Of a stretch of 64,000 nucleotides of DNA, positions 11,957 through 62,203 are shown one piece after another. The notes under the pieces were generated by a model. The model had not been told where the DNA came from and did no database searches. It saw nothing but the letters and a program-made list of their open reading frames with translations. A program made the position numbers and the translations under genes. The stretch comes from Proteiniphilum saccharofermentans (GTDB taxonomy: Bacteria; Bacteroidota; Bacteroidia; Bacteroidales; Dysgonomonadaceae), in the NCBI RefSeq assembly GCF_900095135.1, contig NZ_LT605205.1, positions 1,798,001 through 1,862,000 of the forward strand, read 5' to 3'. The first letter of the stretch is position 1. Each line of letters begins with the position of its first letter.

Positions 11957-13192
11957 TTACTTTTTACTTATCTTATATAATCGTCCTTCATCCGTTACGG
12001 CATAGAGTGCACCGTCGTTACCGTCGGCCACATCACGGAAGCGTTGCCCTTCATTGGCGAGCAGGCGTTCTTCGCCTGTTACTTTGTTATCTTTGATTAC
12101 AAGCCGGACAATATGTTTAGTATTGAGCCCGCCAATGAAGAGGTTATTTTCCCATTCGGGAATGGCGTTGGAACTATAGAAAGCCATGCCACTGGGTGAA
12201 AAGACAGGATCCCAGTAGTAAACAGGTTGCTCCATACCTTCTTTTTGTGTAATTCCTTCACCGATGATATTGCCGCTGTACTCGATGCCATAGGTGATGG
12301 TAGGCCATCCGTAGTTTTTACCCGGTTTAATAAGGTTGACTTCATCACCGCCGCGCGGCCCCATCTCACTGAGCCAGAGTTCACCTGTAACAGGATGGAT
12401 ATCCAGGCCCTGCGGATTACGGTGTCCGTAGCTGTATATTTCCGGCAGTGCTCCCTCGGTACCGATAAACGGGTTGCCCGGAACAGGTTCACCTTCTGTG
12501 GTGATGTATATTACTTTACCGTGACCGGTATTGAGCTTTTGGGCGTTGGGACGGGTGGCGAGATCAGACCGTTCACCGGTAGTGGCGAAGATATGTCCGT
12601 TCTTATCAAACAATAGACGGCTGCCGAAGTGCATGCTATTGTCGAAATAGGGGATGGCGCGGTAGATGATGCGGAAATCCTCTATGTTTGTTTCATCGTC
12701 GGAGAGTTTTCCTTTGCCCACTGCTGTGAGGGAGCCTTGCGCAGTCCGCTCAGCAAAAGTAAAATAGAGCATCCTGCTGCTACTGAAATCGGGTGCCGGT
12801 GCCACATCCAGCAATCCCCCCTGACTCCGGTCGTCTACTTCAGGAAATCCTGTAATGGGAGCACTTACATTGCCGTCGGTGGTGGCGATACGCATAGTAC
12901 CGGCCTTTTCTGTGATGGCCAGCCGGCCGTCAGGCAGTGGTGTGACCGCCCATGGCTTCACTAATCCGTCGGCGATAACAGTCGCTTCGTAAGGAGTTGT
13001 CGTTTTCACGCCTGCAACGCGGGTTTGTCCCTCGAAAGCGGGTTTAAAATCGGGGTTGTTGGGCTTTTCGGTCTCTACCGGGGGCAGAGTCTCTTCGTTC
13101 GGTTCTTGTTCGCTTGTTTTCGGTGCTTCACATGAAGCCGAAAGCAACACAAAAGCCGATAAAAAAAGTGCTGTAATCTTTAAATAGTTCAT
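11957..13192 (-). CDS. PQQ-dependent sugar (glucose/sorbosone) dehydrogenase-like lipoprotein
   Basis: The 411-residue protein has a lipoprotein signal (lipobox LSASC, cysteine near 21) and an acidic low-complexity linker. A GSDH beta-propeller follows, with GLVKPWAVTPLPDGRLAITE (about 74-93), GGLLDVAPAPDF, NSMHFGSRLLFDKNGHIFA, YSYGHRNPQGLDIHP and ELWLSEMGPRGGDEVN. These are the PQQ- and calcium-binding segments of the soluble aldose sugar dehydrogenase (YliI) family. It oxidises sugars at the cell surface if PQQ is available; the cofactor source is not evident here. It stands alone and reads leftwards. Confidence 0.88.
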   Translation of the reverse strand: MNYLKITALFLSAFVLLSASCEAPKTSEQEPNEETLPPVETEKPNNPDFKPAFEGQTRVAGVKTTTPYEATVIADGLVKPWAVTPLPDGRLAITEKAGTMRIATTDGNVSAPITGFPEVDDRSQGGLLDVAPAPDFSSSRMLYFTFAERTAQGSLTAVGKGKLSDDETNIEDFRIIYRAIPYFDNSMHFGSRLLFDKNGHIFATTGERSDLATRPNAQKLNTGHGKVIYITTEGEPVPGNPFIGTEGALPEIYSYGHRNPQGLDIHPVTGELWLSEMGPRGGDEVNLIKPGKNYGWPTITYGIEYSGNIIGEGITQKEGMEQPVYYWDPVFSPSGMAFYSSNAIPEWENNLFIGGLNTKHIVRLVIKDNKVTGEERLLANEGQRFRDVADGNDGALYAVTDEGRLYKISKK

Positions 13193-13365
13193 AGGACTGT
13201 GATTTATTGTAATCTGATTGTTTTGAATAGAAAGCCAAACCGGATCCGGTAGTTACCGTATGCTGTTGTTGATTGTGATCCGGCCGGCTCATTTCCTTTA
13301 ACAACGCGTAAATCGCAATTGTTCAATATCATGAGATACATAATTGGCTGTAAACTATTTTAATG

Positions 13366-13373
13366 TATCTTTG
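13366..13373 (+). promoter_or_regulatory. Promoter of hicBA
   Basis: TATCTTTG at 13366-13373 with TTGG at 13344-13347, spaced 18 bp, fits the Bacteroidota TTTG-N19-TAnnTTTG promoter. It places the start of transcription near 13380, so hicB begins at the ATG at 13413 and not at the in-frame ATG at 13344. Confidence 0.6.
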
Positions 13374-13412
13374 TTCTTATCATATCATAGTATTTCTGTA
13401 ACTTTAAAATTT

Positions 13413-13637
13413 ATGCTTACGTACAACGTTCAACTAAGAAAAGAAGAGGAAGGCGGATATACAGCGATTGTTCCGGCTCTTCCCGGCTGTATTACCTATG
13501 GTGAGACGGTGGATGAGGCCATTGCGATGGTAAAGGAAGCCGTGGAATTATATATTGATGAACTTACAGATCGCGGTGAACCAATACCGGACGATACTCA
13601 TACTCTTGAACTTTCTATACATGTTGAAGCTGTATGA
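13413..13637 (+). CDS. hicB: HicB-family antitoxin
   Basis: The 74-residue protein has the compact HicB fold, a partial RNase H-like sheet (GGYTAIVPALPGCITYGET at about 14-32, then DEAIAMVKEAVELYIDEL). It has no separate DNA-binding domain, as in many short Bacteroidota members. It neutralises the HicA mRNA interferase encoded next to it. The start is set by the promoter at 13366-13373. The stop overlaps the hicA start (ATGA). A fragment matching its end (NELTARGEPIPYDR) recurs at about 24121-24163. Confidence 0.92.
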   Translation: MLTYNVQLRKEEEGGYTAIVPALPGCITYGETVDEAIAMVKEAVELYIDELTDRGEPIPDDTHTLELSIHVEAV

Positions 13638-13831
13638 ATTTAAGCCCCAAATATCTTATTGATCTCTTGGAACAAAATGGATTTATTTTCAAAAGGTCAA
13701 AAGGCTCGCATAGATTGTACTATAATTCCCAAACAAATAAAACAGTCATTGTTCCAATGCACGGAAATAAGGACTTAAAAAAAGGAACATTCTTTGCAAT
13801 TTTAAAGCAAGCCGGGATTACGTATAGATAA
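13634..13831 (+). CDS. hicA: HicA-family mRNA interferase toxin
   Basis: The 65-residue protein has a double-stranded-RNA-binding-like fold with the catalytic histidine in KGSHRLYY (about 23-30) and the conserved VPMHGNKDLKKGTFFAILKQ that follows. HicA cuts translated mRNAs when HicB is lost. The antitoxin-first gene order is common in this phylum. A strong hairpin at 13846-13888 follows, and serves also the gene converging from the right. Confidence 0.93.
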   Translation: MNLSPKYLIDLLEQNGFIFKRSKGSHRLYYNSQTNKTVIVPMHGNKDLKKGTFFAILKQAGITYR

Positions 13832-13845
13832 TTCAATTAAACATA

Positions 13846-13888
13846 AAAAACCGGGGAATAAAGAAGACCACTTTATTCCCCGGTTTTT
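13846..13888. terminator. Bidirectional hairpin terminator after hicBA
   Basis: AAAAACCGGGGAATAAAG pairs perfectly with CTTTATTCCCCGGTTTTT; A-tract and T-tract on either side let it work in both directions. The hairpin at 24175-24217 is its diverged homologue with paired base changes. Confidence 0.9.
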
Positions 13889-13913
13889 ACTTTTTATATT
13901 TAGTCTCCAATAC

Positions 13914-13962
13914 TTACTTGACTTCCACTTCAATCCACTGCGAACGATCGGGTGGTGCGGGT
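13914..13962 (-). pseudogene. Fragment of the 3' end of a Tricorn-like protease gene
   Basis: The minus strand reads PAPPDRSQWIEVEVK and stop, nearly the same as the last residues of the intact Tricorn-like protein at 24243-27530 (PAPPNRSQWIEVEIE). The rest of the gene is absent: about 10 bp to the right the wbsX gene ends. Together with the hicBA terminator to its left it reproduces the junction found again at 24121-24300. Confidence 0.85.
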
Positions 13963-13972
13963 CAGAATAGAA

Positions 13973-15184
13973 TTAATATCGATCGTATTTTTTGTCAATA
14001 AAAACATCTTTCACTGCCTCCAAGTAATCGAAGCCATGTAACATATCCGGTAGCAGGTAGCTACCTTCTACCCATTCGTTCCAGGCATTAATTGTTATCA
14101 GTTTTGTTTGTCCCGGGTGTTGGTCAGCATATTCTTTTGCTTTTGAAAGCAGCGTGGCAAAACTTTTGGGTGTATTATGATAATGCACTATATCCTTTAT
14201 CCCTTTTTTGGGAAATCTAGGTGTATCATCCCACCCGATTGAGACGCACGGGAAAACGGGAACATCTAATATTTCGTTCATTTGTTCCCTTATTTTGACT
14301 GAATTGGCTCCATAGACAAGATAATCTTCTGCCATTCCTCCCATGTTATACATAGCCACACTGTTAAACCCCATGGAATCTACATTTTTTTTAAACTCCC
14401 GGGCTTTTTCTTCCGACATAAGCGATCCCCCGCCTTGATTCCATTGGATATGAAGTCCCGGGAATCCGGCCTTTTGTACTTCATCCCTGAAATAATCCAG
14501 GGCCTTTCGGGTTTCTTCTATGCTACCGCCGAAACTTTCCTTCAACTTGTCGATGCTAAAAATGGAGAAAACAGGTTCACCATTAATCTTAAAGTAGTTG
14601 GGTTGTTTAAAATATTGGTTAATAACCCTGTCGACAATAATTTTGTAATTTTCCCAATCAACTTTAGCATCCCATAAAATGGAAGCATCATCTCCATAAC
14701 GGTGATAATTCCAATAGTTATGTTTTACATCATGGTTGGCCCACATAATATAGAACTGCATTTTATGACTGTTGTTGGCTTTCAGAAACCCGTCATTCAA
14801 AGCACTTTCCAGGTATGGACCCTCTTCATACCAATACCAGTCATAAACAAATACATTCACACCATGGTCAATGGCTACATCTATCCAGCGTTCAACTACC
14901 TTTGGGTTGTTATCCATCTCGTATCCCCACAGTGGTTGACGTGGTTGATAATGGCCTTCATATCTGGGATTCCCTTTTTTTATCACTTCCCATTCACCTA
15001 TACCCTCTGTCCATAATTTTTCCCTTGCCAATGGGTCATCGTGACATGATGGCCAGATGTAAGCCGCAACATAATATTCATTTTTAATTTCCTGATCTAC
15101 TGGTTGTGATTGAGTTTCGAAGATATTTCCCCAAATAAATCCGACCAATATAAGTAAACCAATACAAATTTCATTCTTTTTCAT
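13973..15184 (-). CDS. WbsX-like / GH99-like glycan-active protein
   Basis: The 403-residue protein has an N-terminal signal segment (residues 6-22). A single domain follows with the features of the WbsX (GH99-like) family: AAYIWPSCHDD at the start, HGVNVFVYDWYWYEEGPYLE at about 112-131, WNQGGGSLMS, and the closing signature INAWNEWVEGSYLLPD near 370. GH99 enzymes are endo-acting mannosidases, but WbsX-type proteins have often been called glycosyltransferases. Export and the position downstream of susC-susD favour a hydrolase working on the imported glycan. Unlike many polysaccharide loci there is no other glycosidase here. Lower GC content than genes to the left. Confidence 0.8.
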   Translation of the reverse strand: MKKNEICIGLLILVGFIWGNIFETQSQPVDQEIKNEYYVAAYIWPSCHDDPLAREKLWTEGIGEWEVIKKGNPRYEGHYQPRQPLWGYEMDNNPKVVERWIDVAIDHGVNVFVYDWYWYEEGPYLESALNDGFLKANNSHKMQFYIMWANHDVKHNYWNYHRYGDDASILWDAKVDWENYKIIVDRVINQYFKQPNYFKINGEPVFSIFSIDKLKESFGGSIEETRKALDYFRDEVQKAGFPGLHIQWNQGGGSLMSEEKAREFKKNVDSMGFNSVAMYNMGGMAEDYLVYGANSVKIREQMNEILDVPVFPCVSIGWDDTPRFPKKGIKDIVHYHNTPKSFATLLSKAKEYADQHPGQTKLITINAWNEWVEGSYLLPDMLHGFDYLEAVKDVFIDKKYDRY

Positions 15185-15280
15185 AATTGCTTTTATTAAT
15201 CGAGTAATGTTATATAATTATCTATCTTACTTTTCAGAGGCATCCAATCCCAAAAATAATACAAAATGCACATATGATAA

Positions 15281-15471
15281 GAAACTGTTTTGAATTTTTT
15301 CATCAATTGTTTTTTAGTAATTTTTTGATGGATTTGGATTTTCATTTATTGAAATGTAGCGGGCTACTAGAAAGAAATGAAAATTCGAAGGCGCAAAAAA
15401 GGGCAAAAAACAAGATGAAAGAGTGAAAAAATAAGTGTAAAATAATTACTCGTAAAATTCAAAACAGTTTC
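15281..15471 (+). mobile_element. MITE-like element, subfamily 2 (copy B)
   Basis: A 191-bp non-coding element with ends GAAACTGTTTTGAATTTT and AAAATTCAAAACAGTTTC, flanked by TAA at 15278-15280 and 15472-15474. It contains the core TAGCGGGCTA also found inside subfamily 1. It differs from the reverse complement of the copy at 61904-62094 at one position. It lies between susD and wbsX, about 20 bp after the susD stop. Confidence 0.85.
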
Positions 15472-15489
15472 TAAGCAAATCGTTCTAAA

Positions 15490-17220
15490 TTACCAACCCG
15501 GATTTTGGGTCAAATTTGGGTTAAGTGTCAATTCATCTTGTGGAATAGAGTACAAATAATCTCTGTTTTCTTTAAATTGATATCCGTTGGGCAGTTGTTG
15601 CCTGTAGTGGTCAATTAAGCCATTATCGTCTACATTCCCGTTATAATCAGGAAATTCAGCAACATTTAACGGATAACCTTTAGGCCTTTTATTTTTAAAT
15701 AGTGAATGTGCAGCCCATCTATTTAAATCTTCATCACGCATTCCTTCCAGTGCTAATTCCACTCTTCTTTCCCTCCGTATTTCATAGAGTTCATCTGGAA
15801 TTGGATATCCGTAATCAATTAAGTTTGGGTCTTCTGTTTGTTTGTTGACAGTGAAATTGGGCATACCTACCCTTGCTCTCAGAAGATTTAATTGTTCATA
15901 AACAATTGAGTTGTCAAGTTCATATTTTGCTTCAGCATAATTTAAAAGAACTTCTCCAAAACGAAATATAATTAAACCAGTTTGACTTCCTGCTTCCCAT
16001 GATTGTGCTGCGCCACTTGAGTAGGGATTTGTAGTTTTTTTTATTTGAAATCCTGTAGGACATAATTGGAGTACGCCTGCATCAATTGTCGGTTTATCAA
16101 AGATTAAATTTCTTTCAACACTTCTATAATCTCCAGGTATATATATAGTTGACTTTAGCCTTACGTCGCAATTTTGTGCTATTTGTATTAAAAAGTCATT
16201 ACCTTTTGAAGTTCCGGATAAATTCAGATAATCGAAAGGTTTTCCATTTTTACCAAGATATGAGGAAATCAAGTCCCATGTAGCACCCTTTTGTTCTGCA
16301 TTATAGCTAAGGTATCCTTCCACAGTGTTACCAAAACCTTCGGCTAAATTAAAAGATTTATATAATAATACTTCATTAATGTCACCCATATTTTCTAAAC
16401 CAAACATTGTGTAGTAATCACTGTCTGGTTTTCCCGTTTCATATATACCCACTAAATAATTACCTCCAATTAGTTCTTCTGCAGCTTCAACACATTTGAG
16501 AAAGTATTTATCCGGGTCAATGCCAGGTGTTGAGAATTGTGTTCCTGAGTGATACTTTTGCCAGCTTCCTTCAAATAATGCAACCCTTGTCTGGAAAGCC
16601 AATGCTACTTCTTTATTAATGACACAATTTCCCACATCTTTTCTATAATCCAAGAAAAGAACAGCTTTGTCTAAATCGTCCAATATGTTGTCAATGATTT
16701 CAGTTCGAGGATCTCTGGGCTGCATAAGTTTTTCATCATTATCAAGTTCTAAAACTTCATCATACCATGGAATGTCACCATACATTTTAAGAAGTTCGAA
16801 ATAGAACCAAGCTCTAAAAAAATGTGCTTCTCCAACATAATGTTTATAGGAATAGAAATCATCTTCACATTTTTCATAGTTTTTAAAGAATATGTTAATA
16901 TCCCGGATTTGCCTCCATTCACCCGTCCATCTACCTGTTCTTATGGTTCTTTGTCCGTTCAAAATCACACTAGGGGAACCTCCATGGATCATTTCGTCAG
17001 AGTTGGTGGCTAAATCTACAATCATTGCAGAGTTTGGGAATGCCCTTGGATAAAATTGATACATATAGTTTCTTAAATCTGAACTGCTTTTCCAATAATT
17101 TTCTTCTGTGATTTGATCTAATGGTTTTAAATCTATAAAATCTTCACATGAAAGCAAAAATGAGATTGAAAGAGCTACAACAATCATCGACTTGTTTCTT
17201 ATGTTATTCATTTTAATCAT
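15490..17220 (-). CDS. SusD/RagB-family surface glycan-binding lipoprotein
   Basis: The 576-residue protein has a lipoprotein signal with lipobox LLSCED (cysteine at about 25), then the conserved DFIDLKPLDQITEENYW. The helical TPR-like SusD core is marked by ALAFQTRVALFEGSWQKY and the C-terminal RRERRVELALEGMRDEDLNRW at about 495-515. SusD proteins cap the SusC transporter from outside and bind the glycan. It lies 12 bp downstream of susC, the standard arrangement. The nearby WbsX-like gene hints at a mannose-containing substrate, but this is inference. Confidence 0.95.
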   Translation of the reverse strand: MIKMNNIRNKSMIVVALSISFLLSCEDFIDLKPLDQITEENYWKSSSDLRNYMYQFYPRAFPNSAMIVDLATNSDEMIHGGSPSVILNGQRTIRTGRWTGEWRQIRDINIFFKNYEKCEDDFYSYKHYVGEAHFFRAWFYFELLKMYGDIPWYDEVLELDNDEKLMQPRDPRTEIIDNILDDLDKAVLFLDYRKDVGNCVINKEVALAFQTRVALFEGSWQKYHSGTQFSTPGIDPDKYFLKCVEAAEELIGGNYLVGIYETGKPDSDYYTMFGLENMGDINEVLLYKSFNLAEGFGNTVEGYLSYNAEQKGATWDLISSYLGKNGKPFDYLNLSGTSKGNDFLIQIAQNCDVRLKSTIYIPGDYRSVERNLIFDKPTIDAGVLQLCPTGFQIKKTTNPYSSGAAQSWEAGSQTGLIIFRFGEVLLNYAEAKYELDNSIVYEQLNLLRARVGMPNFTVNKQTEDPNLIDYGYPIPDELYEIRRERRVELALEGMRDEDLNRWAAHSLFKNKRPKGYPLNVAEFPDYNGNVDDNGLIDHYRQQLPNGYQFKENRDYLYSIPQDELTLNPNLTQNPGW

Positions 17221-17232
17221 AATTGTAATGTT

Positions 17233-20200
17233 TTAATAGGTAATTGAAAATCCAAACGAATAAATTCTGTCTGCCCCATAGGTTGCAGCACCTGCTATTT
17301 CGTTAAAACCGACTATAGCTGCGGGATCAATCAATTTGGGAAGATTATCAATTGTAAGTAGATTTTCCCCGGAGAAAAATAATCGCACATCACGTAGATG
17401 TAATTTTGAAGTAATTCTGGCGGGAAGAGTATATCCTAATTGTATATTTTGTAACCTCAGATATGCTGCATTTACAAGATACCTGGTATTTGCATGTCCT
17501 CTATTTTTAATATCATTCGTACTATCCAGATATGTACGTGGAAAGAAAGCATCAGTGTTAATATTTGCATCGCCTTCATATAGTCCATAATATTTTGTAC
17601 CAGGTTCATCCCTAAAATAGTCCAAATGTTTACCTTTCGCGTCAATATTTGAATCCCACCATGATCGCATAATACCCCAATAAAATACTGCATTCTGATT
17701 GAAATAATAATCTCTTTTACCTACACCTTTCCATAGCATCGAGAAATCAAAGTTTTTATATGAGACTCCTAAATTTACGCCAAATTGTAATCGGGGTTCA
17801 GAATTTCCAATAATCGATAAATCACCATGGTCATCTAATGTGTTTTTCCCATTGTCAATAATATCATCACCGTTGATATCTTCATATCTTATATCACCAG
17901 GTCTCCAGTTTACAGCGATAAATGAAGGGTCAATTTTTGATAAATATGAATCAACTTCATCCTGGGATCGAAATAAATCATTTACTGTGTATCCCCAAAT
18001 TTCACCAACAACCCTTCCTTCATACCAGGTAGAAAGTGTATTGTTGGGGTTATAATATTGTGTGACGACAGATTTATAGTCTGACAAGTTTGCATTGACA
18101 AAATAAGATAGGTCTTTTCCTATACTCTGTCTCCAATTTATATTTAATTCCCACCCTCTGGTCCTTAATGTTGCATTATTTGACTGGGGTACATTGGCTC
18201 CTAAAACGCCTGGTTTAGGCTCCGACGGCCCGACCATATCCGTAGTAAGTCTTTCAAATAAATCAAAGTCAACCTGAAGTTTATTGTTAAATAACCCTAC
18301 ATTTAGTCCCATGTTTGTAGTAGTAGAAGTTTCCCAAGTCAGATTTCTATTAATTATCCCCGGCGCGCTTGTATAACCAATTTGCCGGGTTCCTCCCGGT
18401 TGAAAAATCCAATTCAATTTTCCTGTATTTATAGGCATTAAAGCCAGATCACTGTATGGAGATATGTTTTGATTCCCTAATTGTCCCCAAGATCCTCTTA
18501 TTTTTAAAGTAGTGATATATTCTTGAGGAACATTCCAAAATGTCTCATTATGCATATTCCATCCTATTGATAAGGAAGGGAAAAATCCCCAGCGATTTCC
18601 TTTCGTAAATACGTAGGACCCATCATATCTGAAATTTGCTTCAAGCATATAGCGATCCGAGAAATTATATCCCAATCGGGAGAAATATCCCTGTGTTGCG
18701 TTGTTTGATAAATACTGATTGACGATTGCTTCTCCTGTGGCAGTTTGTAGAGAAGGTACATCCTGAAATATCATGTCAGTTTTAAAACCATTCAAAGTAA
18801 TGTTATTGCCTTTTTCAAATTGAGATCCTACTAAAAATAAAAAATTGTGTTGCTGATTAATATTCAAATTATACGTAGCATAGATATTTGAAGTCCAAAA
18901 ATTGTTCCTGTAATGCGTCTGTTCATATTGGTTTGGCGTGGTATTACCAAAGGGATAATATGTTTTATCCACGTTCTGAAGGTAAACTGTCTTATGCACT
19001 CGGGTATATACTCGTGAGTAATCGTTATAAGTAAAGTCGGCATTCAGCTTGAGGCCTTCCATGAAATTTATTTCGGTTTTTAAAGTATTCCAATAATCTC
19101 TTATATCTGATTTATCCGTACCCGACAGTATTGTCGGGATATGAGATTCCATAATATAACCCCCTCCTTCTTCCGGCGATCCCCATCCATTATACATGGG
19201 TGTCCATGGGTACGATCTCAATAGATGTCTAAACATGTGATCATAATCACCAGTTTCCGCTTGTGTCATATTCGGCCTTTCCCTGACACTATTGCTATAC
19301 CGGGGTTCGTAGCTAACGCTCCACCAGTCGGTTATATCGAATTCAAATTTACCCATGAGATTAAACCTGTTATAATAGTCTGTTCCATATTGGATAACGC
19401 TATTTTGATTCAAATAACCAAGGGAAAGATAATAAGATGAACGTTCGGCACCTCCTGAAATACTTAAGTTGTGTTTATGATTAATTGCGCTACCAAAATA
19501 AATATCCCACCAGTTCGTATTTGCATAGTTTAAATTTGCATTGTTCCAAACATTCCCTTCAGGGTACGCCCCAAAGTTCGTTGCTCCTTCAGGCCAATTT
19601 GGCATTGACTCCCGTAAATAATCCCAATCCTTATTTTGGAATGCGATCATCCGATCGATTGTTTCATTTCCAATAGGACTCCCGCCGCCATTTCTTCCCG
19701 CTTCATTTAAGACACGTGCATGTGTCCATGAATCTAACATTGTTGGTAGCGGCATGGGATTCTCAATCATTAAGTTCGAGGATAAATTAATAGTGACTTT
19801 CTCTTTACGGTTACCTTTCTTTGTAGTTATAAGAATTACACCGTAAGGGGCCCGTGCTCCATAGATCGCAGATGAAGACGCATCTTTTAAGATTGATATT
19901 GTTTCTATATCTTCCGGGTTTAGTAAATTCATATCACCCGGTGATCCATCAATTAAAATTAACGGGCTTCCCCCATTCAAAGATCCCATTCCCCGAATTG
20001 TGACATCCATAGTCGCACCAGGCTGAAACCCATAATTGTTCCCAATGGATAAATTTAAACCAGGTGCGGCACCTTGTAATAGTTGCGAGACATTAGGGGA
20101 CTGTCGATTCTTAAGTTTCTCATCAGAGATGACGTCCACAGCCCCCGTGACATTCACTTTCTTTTGCACACCGTAACCGACTACTACCACCTCTTCCAAA

Positions 20201-20517
20201 GTTTCCACATCCTCTTGCAGCACTATTTCGAGTGTTGTCCTTCCGTCGAGGGCTACAATTTGGGAAACCATCCCTACATAAGAGATCTCCAATATCGCGT
20301 CCGAAGGCACATTCGTTAAAATGAAGTTTCCTTCGGAATCGGTCACTGTGCCGGTTGATGTTCCCTGTATCATTACAGATACCCCGATCAATGATTCACC
20401 CTCTGCGTCGGTAATCATTCCTTTCACCGTTACGGTTTGTGCAGATAAACAGACAGAAGATGTCCACATTAAGAGAAACATCATCCCTTTCACTAAACTT
20501 AAAATTACATGTTTCAT
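17233..20517 (-). CDS. SusC/RagA-family TonB-dependent outer-membrane transporter
   Basis: The 1094-residue protein has a signal peptide ending near SAQ (27), a carboxypeptidase-regulatory-like domain (VKGMITDAEGESLIGVSV at about 32-49) and the SusC signature VVVVGYGVQKKVNVTGAV at about 111-128. The TonB plug (LLQGAAPGLNLS; IRGMGSLNGGSPLILIDG) and a long beta-barrel ending in an aromatic residue (FGFSITY) follow. With SusD it imports oligosaccharides using TonB energy. No anti-sigma-interacting N-terminal extension is present and no hybrid regulator or sigma factor is adjacent, so control may lie in the long structured leader upstream (20640-21060). Confidence 0.97.
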   Translation of the reverse strand: MKHVILSLVKGMMFLLMWTSSVCLSAQTVTVKGMITDAEGESLIGVSVMIQGTSTGTVTDSEGNFILTNVPSDAILEISYVGMVSQIVALDGRTTLEIVLQEDVETLEEVVVVGYGVQKKVNVTGAVDVISDEKLKNRQSPNVSQLLQGAAPGLNLSIGNNYGFQPGATMDVTIRGMGSLNGGSPLILIDGSPGDMNLLNPEDIETISILKDASSSAIYGARAPYGVILITTKKGNRKEKVTINLSSNLMIENPMPLPTMLDSWTHARVLNEAGRNGGGSPIGNETIDRMIAFQNKDWDYLRESMPNWPEGATNFGAYPEGNVWNNANLNYANTNWWDIYFGSAINHKHNLSISGGAERSSYYLSLGYLNQNSVIQYGTDYYNRFNLMGKFEFDITDWWSVSYEPRYSNSVRERPNMTQAETGDYDHMFRHLLRSYPWTPMYNGWGSPEEGGGYIMESHIPTILSGTDKSDIRDYWNTLKTEINFMEGLKLNADFTYNDYSRVYTRVHKTVYLQNVDKTYYPFGNTTPNQYEQTHYRNNFWTSNIYATYNLNINQQHNFLFLVGSQFEKGNNITLNGFKTDMIFQDVPSLQTATGEAIVNQYLSNNATQGYFSRLGYNFSDRYMLEANFRYDGSYVFTKGNRWGFFPSLSIGWNMHNETFWNVPQEYITTLKIRGSWGQLGNQNISPYSDLALMPINTGKLNWIFQPGGTRQIGYTSAPGIINRNLTWETSTTTNMGLNVGLFNNKLQVDFDLFERLTTDMVGPSEPKPGVLGANVPQSNNATLRTRGWELNINWRQSIGKDLSYFVNANLSDYKSVVTQYYNPNNTLSTWYEGRVVGEIWGYTVNDLFRSQDEVDSYLSKIDPSFIAVNWRPGDIRYEDINGDDIIDNGKNTLDDHGDLSIIGNSEPRLQFGVNLGVSYKNFDFSMLWKGVGKRDYYFNQNAVFYWGIMRSWWDSNIDAKGKHLDYFRDEPGTKYYGLYEGDANINTDAFFPRTYLDSTNDIKNRGHANTRYLVNAAYLRLQNIQLGYTLPARITSKLHLRDVRLFFSGENLLTIDNLPKLIDPAAIVGFNEIAGAATYGADRIYSFGFSITY

Positions 20518-20660
20518 TCCTGGATTTTGTTTTAGATTGATTAATAAATGATTAGGTGTTAGTAAATGTTATTACGAACCGATTAATTATATATTTCAAT
20601 GATATTCAGCATATTATAGCCCGTAATCATCATTACGTCTGTATAAGCTATGTATTTACC

Positions 20661-20709
20661 CGCCGACGGTGGATTTGATCCGTTACAAACGGCAAATGCC
20701 TTGTCGGCG
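20661..20709. other. Long hairpin in the susC leader
   Basis: CGCCGAC at 20661-20667 pairs with GTCGGCG at 20703-20709, enclosing further pairing including CCGTTACAAACGG. A smaller hairpin (CCGGCTAAAGCCGG) lies at about 20738-20752. No T-tract follows on the minus strand. Part of a non-coding, strongly structured stretch of about 400 bp upstream of susC. Confidence 0.55.
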
Positions 20710-20907
20710 TTTATTGAAAAATTAAACGGTTATTTCCGGCTAAAGCCGGCTGAGAGAGGAGAGAGTTTGCAGAGAACTGAAACCCGGTGCGGTAACGGGC
20801 AATCGTGCGGGCGAAGTATAGATTTTTGATTACAGAGTAAGACAGCCGATAGCCGGATTTCTGAAATCTTATCCCTTATACACTCTGATGTATATATGCG
20901 GGGATAT

Positions 20908-21060
20908 AAAAAGAGGCGCGGACGATTGTCGTTATTCCAATCACTAGGCTCCGCAAGGGCCTCATCTCGAGAATAAGACAATGTCCACGCCCTTATTGCT
21001 AAGGGCGCTTCCATTCTTTGGCCTCGAGATTTGAATTTTGCGGATTCGTTATGAAGACCA
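20908..21060 (-). ncRNA. Structured RNA with mutually exclusive stems and a terminator (candidate attenuator or small RNA upstream of susC)
   Basis: On the minus strand TCCGCAA (21044-21038) can pair with TTGCGGA (20956-20950), enclosing nested stems TCTCGAG/CTCGAGA and GCGCCCTT/AAGGGCGT, a rod with internal bubbles. The same TTGCGGA can instead pair through GCGGA with TCCGC (20922-20918), which with the hairpin GATTG/CAATC is followed by GCCTC and TTTTT (20912-20908), a terminator. Two alternative states of this kind are the hallmark of attenuators and riboswitches. TATCTTTG -7 elements on the same strand lie upstream near 21101 and 21170. It could equally be a free small RNA (for instance 6S-like), since susC starts about 390 nt further on. 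I do not recognise the family. Confidence 0.5.
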
Positions 21061-21212
21061 AAAAAGCGCTATATTATTTCGTACCGTAGTTTTACGACAC
21101 AAAGATAATAATTCGATTTAAATGCTGTTATGTTTTCATATCCTTTTTTTTAGAGAATTTTAATTATTCGACAAAGATATGGATATGCAAGTCGTATGAA
21201 GAATATAGGGCG

Positions 21213-21246
21213 TTCGTATTTATTAATTTGGGATTCGTATTTATTA
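21213..21246. promoter_or_regulatory. Pair of 13-bp direct repeats, 21 bp apart (candidate operator)
   Basis: TTCGTATTTATTA occurs at 21213-21225 and again at 21234-21246, exactly two helical turns apart. It lies between the leftward leader RNA and the XRE gene, about 60 bp before that gene, so it may be the XRE protein's own operator. Confidence 0.45.
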
Positions 21247-21307
21247 CAAAGAAAAATTTTGACTATCTTTGAAGATATTATATAAAACCCTATAAAAATG
21301 TACTGGC

Positions 21308-21751
21308 ATGGAAACAGTTGAACAAAGATCAAGGAATAAAAATACGCATCATGGGCACGCCGTCAAACGTTTCCGGACTACGTTGGGGAAAAAACAGGAA
21401 GCGCTGGCCGCCGATATGGGAATCAGTCAGACGCTTGTCTCTTTTTACGAGAAAAAACAGGTAATTGAGGATGAGATGATTGATAAATTTGCCAAAGCGT
21501 TGAACGTAGCCCCTGAACTGATCAAGGAACTCGAAGAAGATCCGGTAACTTATATCATTGAAAACAATACATTTGAAGAGGGAAGCGTAAGCAATATAGC
21601 ATCCACAAGTGAAAATTGTACTTACACGTATAATGCAATTGAACAATTTCTCGAACTGACCAAGGAAAAAACCGCTCTGTATGAACGGATGCTCGAACTG
21701 GAGAAAGAAAAAAGTGCCCTTTTGGAACAGTTGTTAAAAGACCGGAAATAG
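21308..21751 (+). CDS. XRE-family helix-turn-helix regulator with C-terminal coiled coil
   Basis: The 147-residue protein has a Cro/CI-type helix-turn-helix at about 20-75 (VKRFRTTLGKKQEALAADMG, ISQTLVSFYEKK, IDKFAKALNVAPELIKEL). It ends in a coiled coil at about 110-145 (LTKEKTALYERMLELEKEKS) that probably drives oligomerisation. This architecture is common in Bacteroidota as a stand-alone regulator. A TATCTTTG element about 30 bp upstream is a likely promoter. A fragment of a similar protein (EGLKEIAAALGVTIEGLKK) lies at 24036-24120. Target genes are unknown; the divergent leader RNA/susC and the downstream AbiE pair are candidates. Confidence 0.88.
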   Translation: METVEQRSRNKNTHHGHAVKRFRTTLGKKQEALAADMGISQTLVSFYEKKQVIEDEMIDKFAKALNVAPELIKELEEDPVTYIIENNTFEEGSVSNIASTSENCTYTYNAIEQFLELTKEKTALYERMLELEKEKSALLEQLLKDRK

Positions 21752-22195
21752 TCAACAAAAAGATTATATCTCACTTACCGACATAGTTATAAGCCAAGTG
21801 GCCCGGGAAATAACCTCCATGGGATAACCCGAATACAACTAAAGACCTATATAACTATTCAAAAGACAAATAACCATGGCATACGAAATGAACAAAATAC
21901 AATCACATTTAGAGATACTATCAGGATGTAAAGGCATTGAAGAAAGAGTCCTCTACATTCTTCTTGCATACAAATTTACTCTTTTTCCATAGAGGGTTCC
22001 AATGTATGGTAGCGGTCGAAATCTTATGTTGTGCACAACATAACAATTCATATGTTGCGTAGCCATTTATGTTGGTATCCAATCCTAACCTATTGTCTGT
22101 AAGTATTCTATTCATTTTCAACACAACATAAATTTTGACTGCAAAAAATAATATATTCGTTATAGACTATCTAAGAGGGAAAGTATAGAGAGATG
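21752..22195. other. Intergenic region with a perfect 20-bp palindrome
   Basis: I see no convincing gene. A perfect palindrome TTATGTTGTGCACAACATAA lies at 22024-22043, and half of it (CACAACATAA) recurs at about 22121-22130. The leftward 67-codon frame across it has no recognisable motif. Confidence 0.4.
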
Positions 22196-22242
22196 GTTTT
22201 ACTTTGCCACAAATTTGTTATATATTTGTGGCAAAGTAAAAC
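22196..22242. promoter_or_regulatory. Perfect 19-bp inverted repeat upstream of the AbiE pair (operator)
   Basis: GTTTTACTTTGCCACAAAT at 22196-22214 and ATTTGTGGCAAAGTAAAAC at 22224-22242 are exact inverted repeats with a 9-bp spacer, ending 10 bp before the first gene's ATG. AbiEi antitoxins are known to repress their own operon by binding inverted repeats at this position. Confidence 0.8.
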
Positions 22243-22252
22243 TTAGCTAATT

Positions 22253-22855
22253 ATGCAAAGTACTTATAATGAAATAAAACAAAAAATAGAATCTGCTGAA
22301 CGTGGCACTCTTTTCTTTCCGGATGATTTTGCGGCAATAGGCACGTCTGATGCCATCAGATCCGCACTGGTCCGTTTATGCCGTTCTGATATTCTTGTTC
22401 GTGTGGCGCACGGCATTTATTATTATCCGAAGATTGATACTAAATGGGGAAGCGGGATCATACCCCCCGGCATTGAGGAGATAGCCAATGGGATAGCCAA
22501 ACGGGACAAAGTGAGAATAGCTCCGACGGGGGCGTATGTTCTTAATTTGTTGGGACTATCTACTCAAGTACCGGCCAATGCGGTATTCATCACGGACGGT
22601 TCACCCCGTCGGGTTACTATCGGTAAAGGAAAAGGTATTTTGTTCAAACATACCTCCGAAATGCGTAATTTCGCTTATCAATCACGTTTGATGATGCTGA
22701 TCGTTACCGCCATGCGTGAAATCGGAGAAGGAAATGTAACAGATATTCAAATGGGAATTATCAAATCCCACCTAAGGAACGTGCCTACCGATGAAATAAA
22801 AAAGGATATTCAGTTAGCTCCTGCCTGGGTGCGTAAAAAATTATTGGAAGAATGA
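22253..22855 (+). CDS. AbiEi/DUF6088-family antitoxin-repressor
   Basis: The 200-residue protein has an N-terminal winged helix (GTLFFPDDFAAIGTSDAIRS; ALVRLCRSDILVRVAHGIYYYP at about 38-59), followed by the DUF6088 C-terminal domain. AbiEi proteins repress the operon and counteract the AbiEii nucleotidyltransferase in a type IV toxin-antitoxin and phage-abortive system. It starts 10 bp after a perfect inverted repeat, its probable operator. The stop overlaps the start of the AbiEii gene (ATGA). Confidence 0.85.
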   Translation: MQSTYNEIKQKIESAERGTLFFPDDFAAIGTSDAIRSALVRLCRSDILVRVAHGIYYYPKIDTKWGSGIIPPGIEEIANGIAKRDKVRIAPTGAYVLNLLGLSTQVPANAVFITDGSPRRVTIGKGKGILFKHTSEMRNFAYQSRLMMLIVTAMREIGEGNVTDIQMGIIKSHLRNVPTDEIKKDIQLAPAWVRKKLLEE

Positions 22856-23859
22856 AATACATAGACTTATCAAAAAAAGACCAACAGGATATTATACAAA
22901 GGGTGCAAGCTGAAAACGGACTAAACGGGCAAATCATTGAAAAGGATTGGTGGGTGACAACCGTTTTGCGTGCTTTGTTTTCATTACCTTACAGGGAACA
23001 TTGCTCTTTCAAGGGAGGTACTTCGCTTAGTAAATGCTGGGGGCTGATCCGTAGATTCTCGGAAGATGCGGATATAGCTATCGACCGTGAATATTTAGGG
23101 TTCAGTGGCAAATTGTCTAAAACACAAATCAGTGACAAGCTCCGGCGTGCTTCCTGCACTTTTGTCAGGGAGAAATTGCAATATGATTTAGGTGAAAGGT
23201 TAGTAGAAATCGGTGTCGATAAAAGTAAGTTTACTATTCACGTGAATATCACTCCGGTTACGACGACAGATCCGGAGATTATCGAAGTGGAATATTCCTC
23301 AGTCTTTGAAGATAAAATGCCTTATATCCGTCATAAAGTACTTGTTGAAGTTAGCGGGAGATCAATGAGTGAGCCCGTTGTTCCTGTCCTTCTCAATTCA
23401 TTCATAGATAAAGTGTTCACTGACGCGCCATTTAGTGAAGCGGAGTTTGAAGTAAGGGCGGTTGTTCCTCAACGTACATTCTTGGAAAAAGTGTTCCTAC
23501 TGCATGAAGAGTTTTCCAAATCCTACGATTTGATGCGGACGGAACGTATGTCACGTCATTTATACGATATTGTACAAATAATGAATACTCAGATAGCGGA
23601 AGAGGCTTTGACAGATGAAAGACTGTATCGCTCAGTTATTGAACATCGCCGGATATTTATCGGGTTGAAAGATTTTGATTATTCAACATTACTCCCCAAA
23701 AGTATTCGAATTGTTCCTCCTGCCCATATTATAGAAGCATGGCGAAAAGATTACGCCACAATGCAGGAAACAATGATTTATGGCGAATCTCTGCCTTTTG
23801 AGGATATGATAGAAAAAATACGGATTTTAAATGAAAGAATCTGCGAATTATCTTACTAA
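22852..23859 (+). CDS. AbiEii/AbiGii-family nucleotidyltransferase toxin
   Basis: The 335-residue protein carries the nucleotidyltransferase signature KGGTSLSKCWGLIRRFSEDA followed by DIAID (about 54-78), with the acidic pair D77-x-D79 region required for catalysis. AbiEii-type enzymes (MenT/AbiEii) modify tRNA 3' ends in studied cases and stop growth. The conserved EKVFLLHEE helix appears at about 207-215. Length is within the family range. Coupled to the antitoxin by a 4-bp overlap. Probably functional phage defence or a stabilisation module. Confidence 0.87.
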   Translation: MKYIDLSKKDQQDIIQRVQAENGLNGQIIEKDWWVTTVLRALFSLPYREHCSFKGGTSLSKCWGLIRRFSEDADIAIDREYLGFSGKLSKTQISDKLRRASCTFVREKLQYDLGERLVEIGVDKSKFTIHVNITPVTTTDPEIIEVEYSSVFEDKMPYIRHKVLVEVSGRSMSEPVVPVLLNSFIDKVFTDAPFSEAEFEVRAVVPQRTFLEKVFLLHEEFSKSYDLMRTERMSRHLYDIVQIMNTQIAEEALTDERLYRSVIEHRRIFIGLKDFDYSTLLPKSIRIVPPAHIIEAWRKDYATMQETMIYGESLPFEDMIEKIRILNERICELSY

Positions 23860-24007
23860 AAAGATTATATTCACTTACTTTTACGTAGTTTAGTTATGTT
23901 GTGTAAGGAATGAGGTGTACTGATAAATAGGAAGTTGATAAAACAAGCTAACATAAATGGTTGTATTGGTATATTACTATGTAAAAGTGCTGATAGTGCC
24001 GTGGTAG

Positions 24008-24163
24008 AATACGTTTTTCTCACTTTCCAACCATTGGGAAGGATTAAAAGAAATCGCCGCAGCTTTAGGAGTAACCATAGAAGGATTAAAGAAATACAGT
24101 GAGGAAACGGTTCTGTATAATGAGTTGACAGCCCGTGGCGAACCAATACCGTACGATAGATAA
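24008..24163 (+). pseudogene. Chimeric remnant: XRE helix-turn-helix joined to a HicB tail
   Basis: Between a TAG at 24005 and TAA at 24161 the frame reads WEGLKEIAAALGVTIEGLKK then YSEETVLYN, a piece of an XRE helix-turn-helix protein. It runs straight into ELTARGEPIPYDR, the end of a HicB antitoxin (compare ELTDRGEPIPDD at the end of the gene at 13413-13637). No start codon or full domain remains. The fusion point marks a recombination joint at the right edge of the accessory block. Confidence 0.75.
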
Positions 24164-24174
24164 CAGATAAGTAT

Positions 24175-24217
24175 AAAACCAGGGAACAAAGGAACTATCG
24201 CTTTGTTCCCTGGTTTT
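24175..24217. terminator. Bidirectional hairpin terminator of the Tricorn-like gene
   Basis: AAAACCAGGGAACAAAG pairs with CTTTGTTCCCTGGTTTT. It is homologous to 13846-13888; stem positions that differ (G to A, T to C) are compensated on the other arm. Confidence 0.9.
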
Positions 24218-24242
24218 ATCTTTTATATTTAACATGCAAAAC

Positions 24243-27200
24243 CTATTCGATCTCCACCTCAATCCATTGGGAACGGTTAGGTGGTGCGGGTACAGTGACC
24301 TGAGGACGGGGATTGGTTTTGAGTTCTTCAAGCAGTACCTCTACCGCTTTCTCAATAGAGGGATCGTTTCCTTTGGCCAGTTCTTCGGGGCGGTCAATCA
24401 CCTCTATATCGGGATAGACGCCAATACCTTCGATAATCCATTCACCGGTTTGATCGTAGATACCGAAGCGGGGAACGGAGATATAGCCGCCGTCCACTAA
24501 GCGGGCGTTACCGGAGATACCAACCAGTCCGCCCCAGGTGCGGGTACCGATCAACTTGCCTTCTCCGGTTTTACGGAAGAAGTAAGGGAAAGCGTCACCG
24601 CCGGAAGAGGAATAGCCATTGATAAGCATTGCCTTGGGTCCGTCATGTGCGATACCGGGCGTTTTCATCGGTTGTGGCAATCCGTTACGGTGCCAGTAAA
24701 CTAAGGTGCGACGGTTAAGCAGGTCGATCATCCTGTCGGGGATAAAGCCACCGCCATTGTACCGGTCATCGATGATAAGCGCCTCTTTATGATGGTAGGC
24801 ATACATCCCCCTGAAAAGTTCGCGATTGCCTTCGACAGCCGTATTGGGTACATGAATGTAGCCGATCTTGCCGCCGGAGAGACGGTCGACCATTTCCCTG
24901 CGTTGATTCACCCAGTCCATATATCTTAGCTCCTGTTCGCTTGTGATAGTTTTAACGTTATAGCTTTTTGCTCCCGAAGCCGAGGGGCTGTTGTTGACTG
25001 TCAGTTCGATATGCCGGTCGCCCATATTCTCGAGCAGTTCATAAGGATTTTGCGCAGTGGTCAGCTCCTGCCCGTTGATGCGGATGATATAGTCACCTTC
25101 TTTTACGTTAATGCCACTTTCCGTAAGAGGAGATCGACGGCTTTCGTTCCAGTTTTCGCCGGGATATATTTTCCGTATCTTGTATCGGCCGGTGGAAAGG
25201 TCAGCTTCTAATTCTGCACCCAATAGTCCTCCATTGATATGGTCTACCCGTGCGATATCACCCCAGTCGACATATGCATGGCCTGTATTGGTCTCGCTCA
25301 CTATTTCGTTGAGGATATAGTCGAGATCGAATCGGCTGGGTACGTAAGGAAGCAATGCTCCGTAACTTTTCCGAATACCTTTCCAGTCCACGCCATGCAG
25401 ATTATTCACGTAAAAGTAGTCACGAAAAATACGGAATGCATCGGCATAGATCTGATTCCATTCGGCACGGGGATCGATTTTCATATTGAGGTTGTCAAGA
25501 TTGATCGTACCTGTGCCGGCAGCTTGTCCTGTCTGATTTTTTGCTACACCGTAGTTATTACCCCGGCGATAAATAAACGATTTTCCATCTGCCGCAAGGA
25601 TGCCGTAACCAGTCTCGTCAAGGATATCTTCAGCTTTTTCTTCGTTGATATTGTAACGCATGATCTTATTTCCGGTGGCATACAGGAGCCCCTCTTCTAC
25701 AGCACCAATGATGCGATAGTTGCCGGGTTGCAGGGGTAACGCCTGTATCCGGTTTCGTGCGTTATCTATATCTATCTTTACTTTTATCTCTTCCGACAAT
25801 TTACTATCACTATCTCTATCTTTTTCTTTTGCAGTACTTTTTATCCCGTTTTTTTTCGCATTATCGTCTTTCTCCCCACCATAGGGTTCCTTGTCTTCTT
25901 TGTAGGGAGTGAGGGTTGTGCCGTCATCACGTAGTGGAAGGGAATAGATACGGGTAGCGTTGTTATAAAGATAATCGAACTCGAAACTGCTGAAAGCGAG
26001 GTTGAAGTCGCGATTGGAGAGGAAAAAGAGGAATTTTCCATCGCGGCTGAATACCGGGTTACTGTCGGAAAAAGTGGCATCGGTAAGTTGATACTTACGG
26101 CCACTGGAAAGCTGATATACCCAGAGTGCAGATTGGTAGTTGGGAGATGATTTGCTATAGGCTATCCAGTCACCATCGGGAGAGAAGGAGTAATCTCTGA
26201 TCTCTTCTGCAGTCGCTTCGTCGATAGCGGTCTGCCTGCCAGTGGCGACATCCACCAGCCATAGCTTCATAGTGCGGTCGCTGTAGAGGAGGTGTGTGCT
26301 GCGTGGCGACCATTCGGCCGTATGCTTCCAGGCTGCGGAGCCGTGGGTGACTTGTCGTGGGGTTGCTCCTTCCTTATTTTCGAGTATGTAGAGTTCGTAC
26401 TCTCCGGTCGCGTCGGAGTAGTAGGCAATCTGTTTACCGTCGGGCGACCATACGGGAGAGATTTCACGGATACCTTGAGTATTGGTAAGATTTCGTATTT
26501 CTCCTTTTTCTACGGGTACGCTGTAGATATCGCCGCGAGCCTCGAAAAGTGCCCGTTTGCCGGAGGGTGAGAGACTATAACTGCCAATAAATTCCTTTAC
26601 ATTTTTGAAATAGGGTTGCAGATTGGGATTGTCGTAATGGATGGCTACGGTTATCTTACGGCTGCTGCCGGATGCAAGATCGAGCACATAGAGATAACCT
26701 CCGTTTTCATAGACCAACTTGCCATTACGGCCGGAGGGCCACATCACATCAAAGTCGCTATGGCGTGTAATTTGCTCATTTTCGCCGGTAGTTACGTTAT
26801 GGCGCCAGATATTAAGGCGCGTATCGCGGTCGGAAGCATAAAAGATATTATTGCCGTGCCATACGGGCCACTGGTCGGAACCGGTCCATTGAGTGATCTG
26901 TTGTGAATGGTCGTTTGACAGGTCGTATGTCCACAGGTCTGTGGCGCGTCCTCCCTTATAACGTTTCCAGGTGCGGAACTCGCGGTCGACCGGGGTGAAG
27001 CAGAGTTGTGATCCGTCGGGTGAAAAGGTGGCGAACCCACCGTTGACGATGGGAAGCGGTTCCTCAAATCCGCCGTCGATACTGACGGTGAAGTAACGTC
27101 CGTTACGGTCGCCGAAACTCGTGCGATTGGCCCGGAAGAGGATATGTTTGCTATCGGGTGTCCAGTCGAGCACAACGTTATCGAATCCACCCCTCGGCGG

Positions 27201-27530
27201 CATTTCTCCTACCGGGTTGTAGAAGGTGAGTTGCCGCGCGGTACCTCCCCCGGATGGCATTACCCATATCTGTCGACTTCCTGAATATTCGGCTGAGAAA
27301 GCGATCCATTTGCCATCGGGTGAGATCTTGGGGAACAACTCGATACCGCGGTGTGAGGTAATTCTTTTTGCGGAACCACCATTGGCATTTACTGTCCAGA
27401 TATCACCTGCATAAACAAATGCGACCAGGTTTCCGTTGATGTCGGGATAGCGCATCATCCGTGCGTCATCCATTGCCGAAGCCTGTAAGAAAAACAGGCT
27501 TGACAGGATCAGAGTAGTGAGTTTTCTCAT
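24243..27530 (-). CDS. Tricorn protease homologue (S41 family peptidase with beta-propeller and PDZ)
   Basis: The 1095-residue protein has a signal peptide (about 1-19), WD40/PD40-type propeller repeats through about 1-560 (for example ISPDGKWIAFSAEYSGSRQI; WSPDGKQIAYYSDATGEYEL) and a charged low-complexity linker at about 558-585. A C1 region, a PDZ domain (VKEGDYIIRINGQEL at about 835-849) and the S41 catalytic core follow. Tail-specific protease residues are visible: the histidine in NTGHAYVDWG, IIDDRYNGGGF, and the nucleophilic serine in GYSSSGGDAFPYFF. It trims peptides, probably in the periplasm. The 3' end is duplicated as a fragment at 13914-13962. Confidence 0.93.
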   Translation of the reverse strand: MRKLTTLILSSLFFLQASAMDDARMMRYPDINGNLVAFVYAGDIWTVNANGGSAKRITSHRGIELFPKISPDGKWIAFSAEYSGSRQIWVMPSGGGTARQLTFYNPVGEMPPRGGFDNVVLDWTPDSKHILFRANRTSFGDRNGRYFTVSIDGGFEEPLPIVNGGFATFSPDGSQLCFTPVDREFRTWKRYKGGRATDLWTYDLSNDHSQQITQWTGSDQWPVWHGNNIFYASDRDTRLNIWRHNVTTGENEQITRHSDFDVMWPSGRNGKLVYENGGYLYVLDLASGSSRKITVAIHYDNPNLQPYFKNVKEFIGSYSLSPSGKRALFEARGDIYSVPVEKGEIRNLTNTQGIREISPVWSPDGKQIAYYSDATGEYELYILENKEGATPRQVTHGSAAWKHTAEWSPRSTHLLYSDRTMKLWLVDVATGRQTAIDEATAEEIRDYSFSPDGDWIAYSKSSPNYQSALWVYQLSSGRKYQLTDATFSDSNPVFSRDGKFLFFLSNRDFNLAFSSFEFDYLYNNATRIYSLPLRDDGTTLTPYKEDKEPYGGEKDDNAKKNGIKSTAKEKDRDSDSKLSEEIKVKIDIDNARNRIQALPLQPGNYRIIGAVEEGLLYATGNKIMRYNINEEKAEDILDETGYGILAADGKSFIYRRGNNYGVAKNQTGQAAGTGTINLDNLNMKIDPRAEWNQIYADAFRIFRDYFYVNNLHGVDWKGIRKSYGALLPYVPSRFDLDYILNEIVSETNTGHAYVDWGDIARVDHINGGLLGAELEADLSTGRYKIRKIYPGENWNESRRSPLTESGINVKEGDYIIRINGQELTTAQNPYELLENMGDRHIELTVNNSPSASGAKSYNVKTITSEQELRYMDWVNQRREMVDRLSGGKIGYIHVPNTAVEGNRELFRGMYAYHHKEALIIDDRYNGGGFIPDRMIDLLNRRTLVYWHRNGLPQPMKTPGIAHDGPKAMLINGYSSSGGDAFPYFFRKTGEGKLIGTRTWGGLVGISGNARLVDGGYISVPRFGIYDQTGEWIIEGIGVYPDIEVIDRPEELAKGNDPSIEKAVEVLLEELKTNPRPQVTVPAPPNRSQWIEVEIE

Positions 27531-56364: not shown

Positions 56365-56437
56365 AGCCACAAGCGAGACTTGAACTCGCGACCGACGCGT
56401 TACGAATGCGTTACTCTACCAACTGAGCTATTGTGGC
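56365..56437 (-). tRNA. tRNA-Thr (anticodon CGT)
   Basis: On the minus strand acceptor GCCACAA pairs with TTGTGGC, the D arm has AGCTCAGTTGGTAGAG, the anticodon loop is TTCGTAA (CGT), and the T arm is GCGAGTTCAAGTCTCGC. CCA is not encoded. The anticodon stem closes with an A-C mismatch next to the loop (ACGCA/CGCGT), where most tRNA-Thr have A-U. It lies between secDF and atpD, all three on the minus strand. Confidence 0.95.
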
Positions 56438-61835: not shown

Positions 61836-61903
61836 TCGACTTCTAATTAAATATGATTTAAACAATTGAAAAAAACCTGGGTAATCGGTTTCATATAAAA
61901 TAA

Positions 61904-62094
61904 GAAACTGTTTTGAATTTTACGAGTAATTATTTTACACTTATTTTTTCACTCTTTCATCTTGTTTTTTGCCCTTTTTTGCGCCTTCGAATTTTCATTT
62001 CTTTCAAGTAGCCCGCTACATTTCAATAAATGAAAATCCAAATCCATCAAAAAATTACTAAAAAACAATTGATGAAAAAATTCAAAACAGTTTC
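61904..62094 (-). mobile_element. MITE-like element, subfamily 2 (copy D)
   Basis: 191 bp, inverted relative to copy B (15281-15471) and differing from it at one base. Flanks TAA at 61901-61903 and 62095-62097. It lies in the promoter region of the M3 peptidase gene and could affect its expression. Confidence 0.85.
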
Positions 62095-62203
62095 TAAGTG
62101 CAAAGTTACAATTTTTACTTAAATATCGAAAAGTATCCATTGATTGTTTGCCCTTTACCCTGTTTTTTTACATTATTGAAGGTCAATATTTTTCTGTCAG
62201 ATA

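Follow-up and report, generated by a model that had tools for sequence, protein, structure and literature searches.

Why does a block of about 10 kb in the chromosome of Proteiniphilum saccharofermentans carry what looks like the same gene junction at both of its ends, and what does this say about how the block came to be there? We examined the locus in a window of 64,000 nucleotides (contig NZ_LT605205.1, forward-strand positions 1,798,001 to 1,862,000; coordinates below are those of the window), part of a complete chromosome of 4,414,963 bp in one contig. The block contains a SusC/SusD glycan-uptake operon and an AbiE gene pair, and it is bounded on the left by an intact hicBA toxin-antitoxin pair and on the right by an intact gene for a tricorn-type protease. 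A sequence-only reading had taken its ends for direct copies of one junction, through which the block entered or could be removed by recombination. We find instead that the locus is probably a mosaic, built by recombination between species and by repeated deletions, in which the two junctions would be diverged alleles of one ancestral arrangement and not duplicates made within this genome.

That two junctions exist in the same orientation was borne out. The left one reads intact hicBA, a terminator-like hairpin and a 15-residue tricorn carboxy terminus with its stop; the right one reads a hicB-like tail, a homologous terminator-like hairpin and the intact tricorn gene. The features concerned, with the gene on the far left, are:

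11957..13192, minus strand: gene of the glucose/sorbosone dehydrogenase family (GSDH; PF07995), the native left neighbor
13413..13637, plus strand: hicB antitoxin gene (PF15919, 5e-14, 52.9 bits)
13634..13831, plus strand: hicA toxin gene, overlapping the hicB stop (PF07927 on 13637-13831, 3e-20, 72.7 bits)
13846..13888, no strand: left terminator-like hairpin (fold of -26.6 kcal/mol over 13838-13900)
13914..13961, minus strand: 15-codon stub of the tricorn 3' end (translation PAPPDRSQWIEVEVK, then stop)
24120..24163, plus strand: hicB tail, then an 8-mer like the hicA stop region; probable remnant of a native hicBA (local match, shuffles)
24173..24219, no strand: right terminator-like hairpin (fold of -29.5 kcal/mol over 24171-24235)
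24243..27530, minus strand: intact tricorn-type protease gene (PF14685, PF03572, PF14684), the native right neighbor

The left hicA and hicB are adjacent and each scores above its Pfam cutoff, which places them in the HicAB family with predicted toxin and antitoxin roles; neither gave a match in PADLOC or NCBIfam.

In a search of the genome against itself, the left terminator and tricorn end (13844-13962) matched 24172-24291 at 75% identity (E 9.1e-15), and the sole further match below E 0.01 was the palindrome of the left terminator itself. Within the terminator and spacer, 52 of 66 aligned bases are common to the two copies. The hicB tail matched 24120-24158 at 79% over 39 bp. Might such resemblance be due to chance, or to terminators of a generic kind? 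The hicB tail taken by itself gives some room for this, with E 0.05 genome-wide, but its local score against the right-hand scrap region (38) exceeded all 2000 shuffles (maximum 34), and for the terminator and tricorn end the E value and the lack of a third significant place in the genome already refute it. We regard this explanation as scarcely credible. Eight bases matching the hicA stop region (13824 and 24156) stand in the correct order; they form one of several 8-mers that the two copies share and are insignificant alone. The right copy consists of little besides the hicB tail on its hicBA side: hicA is almost entirely gone, the greater part of hicB is missing too, and scraps of other genes precede the tail.

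The origin of each copy became apparent when the locus was compared with relatives, one genome per species, chiefly P. acetatigenes DSM 18083 (G021), Proteiniphilum sp. X52 (G010) and the metagenome bin AS07pgkLD_98 (G025). Both outer genes follow G021. The GSDH gene is 95.9% identical to that of G021 over 1278 bp and 86-91% identical to that of G025 over two pieces, and the last 1 kb of tricorn is 95.7% identical to G021 and 82.8% to G025. Between them the affinity switches to G025 over one tract:

13292..13839, plus strand: G025-like, apparently imported tract, comprising hicBA and its upstream region (98.4% identity to G025 over 548 bp)

The mismatches to G025 number 2 in 121 non-coding positions, 4 in the 225 of hicB and 3 in the 198 of hicA, and because the non-coding part is as conserved as the genes, selection on HicBA or constraint on its proteins does not by itself explain the similarity. 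The tricorn stub is likewise G025-like, agreeing at 47 of 49 positions with G025, at 41 of 48 with the next best, G010, and at 82% over 39 with G021. When the tricorn ends were set against the right copy, agreement was 46 of 50 for G021, 40 of 47 for G025 and 39 of 50 for the left copy. To judge from these identities, the left copy is a foreign, G025-like allele and not a duplicate of the right copy, the tricorn end in the right copy is the native one, of the G021 lineage, and the divergence between the two is about that between the G025 and G021 lineages.

Had the junction been duplicated within the lineage, each copy should resemble the other more than its orthologues; the stub shows the reverse, matching G025 at 47 of 49 positions and the right copy at 39 of 50. 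Recent duplication of the junction is thereby ruled out, as the copies have diverged to the level of separate lineages, and the view of the ends as direct copies of one junction, in the sense of a duplication, is not supported. An older event is conceivable, in which hicBA, the terminator and the tricorn end were duplicated in tandem, the block was inserted between the copies, and the left copy was later converted by a G025-like donor. This would account both for two copies lying in tandem and for the likeness of the left one to G025. However, the duplication would have to predate the divergence from G021, where hicBA and a second tricorn end are both absent from the corresponding place, and it needs the gene conversion as an extra step; we give it very little credence.

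What, then, stands at this place in other genomes? A protein search found the nearest relatives of tricorn in Proteiniphilum and further Bacteroidales. Our genus set comprised 38 relatives, 28 of which yielded the tricorn 3' end with flank, and neighbors were tallied up to five within 4 kb, SusC/SusD excluded. In 21 of the 28, the GSDH gene lies at most 1.2 kb from tricorn with no hicBA between (in G001, G011 and G035, where the flank is merely 1.2-1.4 kb, it is the direct neighbor). Six others have different neighbors at tricorn (G010, G013, G028, G009, G014 and G015). In the remaining one, G025, just 12 bp and no other gene separate hicBA from the tricorn end, and GSDH lies beyond; the arrangement that the sequence-only reading had suggested looking for, hicBA next to tricorn, was found in this one relative. 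It does not have the terminator common to both window copies: some 75-80 bp including it are missing between hicA and tricorn. The block itself was present at tricorn in none of the 28, where no wbsX, xre or AbiE was seen. Apart from the junction itself, the 101 genomes of the family gave only short matches to the hicBA tract. In G016 and G020 these covered 111 bp of hicB (74-76%), and in two genomes from another genus about 50-60 bp.

We propose the following course of events, of which the identity switches, the scraps and the arrangements in relatives are observed. The ancestral order would have been GSDH, hicBA, terminator, tricorn. In the native lineage hicBA would have been lost or have decayed, with deletions eroding most of the right junction. 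A G025-like relative would then have donated an intact piece made up of hicBA, terminator and tricorn end, which recombined through conserved intergenic DNA on the GSDH side; we infer a crossover near 13235-13292, as well as the direction of transfer and the order of events. At the opposite end an illegitimate join would have been made, for the import includes no more than 15 tricorn codons and breaks off about 10 bp away from where wbsX ends. Between the junctions would then lie the lower-G+C genes wbsX, susD and susC with the xre and leader region, followed by AbiE amid the remains of yhcG. HicBA is on this account part of the junction and not of the cargo; the cargo and the left junction may have come from one molecule.

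Several observations weigh against this account. The tricorn stub is a mere ~50 bp long. G025 is a metagenome bin, and the GSDH gene beside its hicBA (contig 131, L042) is broken. A native hicBA is deduced from a 39-bp tail, and no relative has it intact on the native side. With one genome per species, no strain displays an intermediate. Finally, positions 13235-13291 are, as judged by eye, near neither G021 nor G025, from which it follows that the donor would be related to G025, yet not G025 itself.

A different route to the same arrangement is insertion of the Campbell type, in which a molecule carrying the block and a donor hicBA-terminator-tricorn' segment, either circular or entering by a single crossover, integrated through junction homology, the right junction eroding later. 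The shared orientation of the junctions agrees with this, as do the empty site in G025 and the foreign character of the left copy from ~13292 onward, expected for a crossover in the region between GSDH and hicBA. But such an insertion should have left GSDH-side DNA of the donor in front of the right hicB remnant, where xre and yhcG scraps are found, and no recombinase was present among the 10 proteins scanned. We consider it unlikely. The likeness to insertion-duplication stops at the two target junctions in the same orientation; here the copies are 75-79% identical, their longest identical run is 12 bp, and the donor sequence before the right copy is missing.

A longest identical run of 12 bp between the copies makes RecA-mediated excision, and homologous removal in general, unlikely today, and it becomes unlikely that the flanking repeats here mark a removable unit. 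Rather, the ends keep different alleles of one boundary, through which a history of interspecies recombination and attrition can be read. From the earlier interpretation, the acquisition of the block survives, with the empty arrangement in G025, absence from tricorn in 28 of 28 relatives and lower G+C in its favor; duplication is not supported, ready removal is unlikely, and stabilization by toxin-antitoxin systems is a weak proposal.

The left part of the block comprises:

13973..15184, minus strand: gene for a WbsX-type protein (PF14307; 84% nucleotide identity to G025 contig 362)
15281..15471, no strand: 191-bp inverted-repeat element resembling a miniature inverted-repeat transposable element (MITE), with TAA at both flanks and ends set from alignment
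15490..17220, minus strand: susD (PF07980, 136.6 bits)
17233..20517, minus strand: susC (TIGR04056, 837.6 bits, above cutoff)

The G+C content of the enclosed genes is 0.345-0.434, against 0.50 for GSDH and tricorn, which fits acquisition. Adjacent susC and susD are as in a polysaccharide utilization locus (PUL). For WbsX the test for a PUL-associated enzyme gave just PF14307, and there was no NCBIfam match; the part of G025 contig 362 that was read contains no other gene of the block. The same susC-susD-wbsX order occurs in G031 at 78-79% nucleotide identity, with no match to the leader or xre described below. The inverted-repeat element ends in GAAACTGTTTTGAATTTT. Its own-genome copies, flanked by TAA or TTA, number five including this one (the other four are 94-99% identical to it), with a second in the window at about 61903-62095, and the alignment showed six copies in G010 and a single one in G003. 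As for a mobile-element boundary, a Pfam scan of the 10 main proteins (smaller open reading frames lay outside it) found no integrase, recombinase or transposase of the kind expected in a genomic island or an integrative conjugative or mobilizable element, and the MITE-like element is interior, not at the ends. Nor is a tRNA at hand as an insertion site, the sole window tRNA in an Rfam scan being at 56365-56437.

The right part was searched for gene scraps by tblastn over a 2.5-kb stretch, with a reference protein identified as YhcG by PF06250 and PF17761:

21870..22023, plus strand: scraps of a yhcG (DUF1016) nuclease gene, residues 1-17, 140-167 and 263-279 (E 1e-3, 2e-7 and 2e-5)
22253..22855, plus strand: abiEi (PADLOC AbiEi 8e-64; PF19570)
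22852..23859, plus strand: abiEii (PADLOC AbiEii 7e-100; PF08843)
23938..24012, plus strand: yhcG scrap beyond AbiE, residues 303-327 (E 3e-7, 72%)
24038..24121, plus strand: 28-codon scrap of the second gene of a conserved xre pair (E 5e-12, 82%)

All of these run in one sense, as yhcG, AbiE, yhcG and xre, followed by the hicB tail and terminator. The yhcG pieces on both sides place AbiE inside a shattered yhcG; the xre pair was read in G010, G021, G003 and G024. The AbiE genes, abiEi followed by an overlapping nucleotidyltransferase gene, have the composition of an AbiE system with predicted defense or toxin activity, and the pair had no NCBIfam match. Its affinities lie elsewhere: among the 101 family genomes the five nearest to AbiEii belong to other genera (56-60%), and the best in the genus reaches 45%. 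The idea that two toxin-antitoxin systems stabilize the block is accordingly weak, with hicBA present in G025 without the block, AbiE lodged in yhcG ruins and its kin in other genera.

Positions 22045-22133 are 82% identical (E 5e-17) to the plus strand of a truncated yhcG region on G007 contig 194, in the sense opposite to the yhcG scraps. An inverted, yhcG-related pair around AbiE, formed by this piece and ~23890-24017, is not claimed; 140 of 2000 shuffles reached its mutual score, and the second piece matched G007 contig 194 weakly (E 0.01). A rule that yhcG follows xre was also dropped: among 15 further xre loci, matches were confined to G010 contig 7 (a yhcG-like gene) and G013 (a 21-residue piece), with none beside xre at the other 13, of which two are in the same genome as the window and two have less than 130 bp of flank.

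Set beside known systems, the locus resembles genomic islands and PUL blocks swapped by homologous recombination in core flanks. It shares with them lower-G+C accessory genes between conserved core genes, simple neighbors in relatives and no integrase in the proteins scanned; it differs in that one flank keeps a foreign boundary allele beside the native one, which leaves a readable history of the join. HicBA, AbiE and the scraps of yhcG, xre and hicB in one intergenic place recall hotspots of toxin-antitoxin and defense turnover. However, of 29 genus genomes (the present one included) only this one shows such crowding and one more has hicBA, and a recurrent hotspot is therefore not supported. 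As a PUL the operon is typical in that susC and susD are neighbors and are accompanied by an associated gene, in the order seen in G031. PULs are ordinarily regulated by hybrid two-component sensors, by extracytoplasmic function (ECF) sigma and anti-sigma factors or by regulators of the SusR type. None of these domains was found by Pfam scan in the eight block proteins, of which Xre has HTH_3, and in the position that a sensor or sigma factor of the standard kind might occupy there are instead a divergent xre and a structured leader:

20690..21160, minus strand: conserved susC leader, structured core 20915-21106 (covariation)
21308..21751, plus strand: xre regulator gene, divergent from susC (PF01381)

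We aligned the leader with 10 further loci and evaluated a 192-nt core over 10 loci, nine of them distinct. In the core, both partners have changed in 16 of 58 pairs, and 96.7% of cells are paired, values neither of which was reached in 500 shuffles, although the structure was derived from the alignment on which it was tested, a bias in its favor. Slid controls of the same alignment dropped to 39-47% paired. For the whole leader 18 of 87 pairs have changed on both sides, and the covariation term in RNAalifold was small (-1.22 of -77.14 kcal/mol). Rfam 15 had no family at gathering score; a relaxed threshold gave sub-gathering matches only for the leader, and no match across the leader-like hits of other families. 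A coding role was set aside, as the frame of a 94-residue open reading frame (20730-21014) is, by eye, shifted in at least 2 of the 11 aligned loci.

A model of the core found 12 places in 8 of 39 genus genomes at E 0.001 and missed the divergent leaders on G004 contig 22 and G012 contig 27, which a sequence search recovered. Wherever the contig allows a check, xre and susC flank the leader at genus loci (G012 contig 5 ends before the xre position), with these same two as exceptions, each having xre but no susC match. The SusC proteins under the leader share about 23 to 39% identity with that of the window. Across the order, 6 of 393 genomes matched at E 1e-4, the present one included; the other five were weak (39.7-57.1 bits), and near them a search at E 0.01 found neither an xre nor a susC of the window type. 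This argues against the two being firmly linked to the leader across the wider family. That the closest operon, in G031, has neither leader nor xre suggests that the control part is separable from the cargo. It is possible, and we put it forward tentatively, that the divergent xre and the long structured leader form a portable control cassette for glycan-uptake operons, kept while SusC/SusD changes.

The leader is the more unusual part of the locus, the island itself being of an ordinary kind with an unusually readable history. If confirmed, it would represent an RNA family that is so far unclassified and a design for the regulation of SusC/SusD operons; at the level of titles and abstracts we found no paper on the locus, and surveys of structured RNAs were not compared with the leader. 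Elsewhere in the same chromosome (G000:C1:3427005-3427195) and in G010 (C14:51482-51672) there are two leaders equal in score (217.2 bits) that look identical when aligned. The tricorn proteins of the two genomes differ by 5%, and the likeness of their leaders suggests recent exchange of that xre-leader-susC locus.

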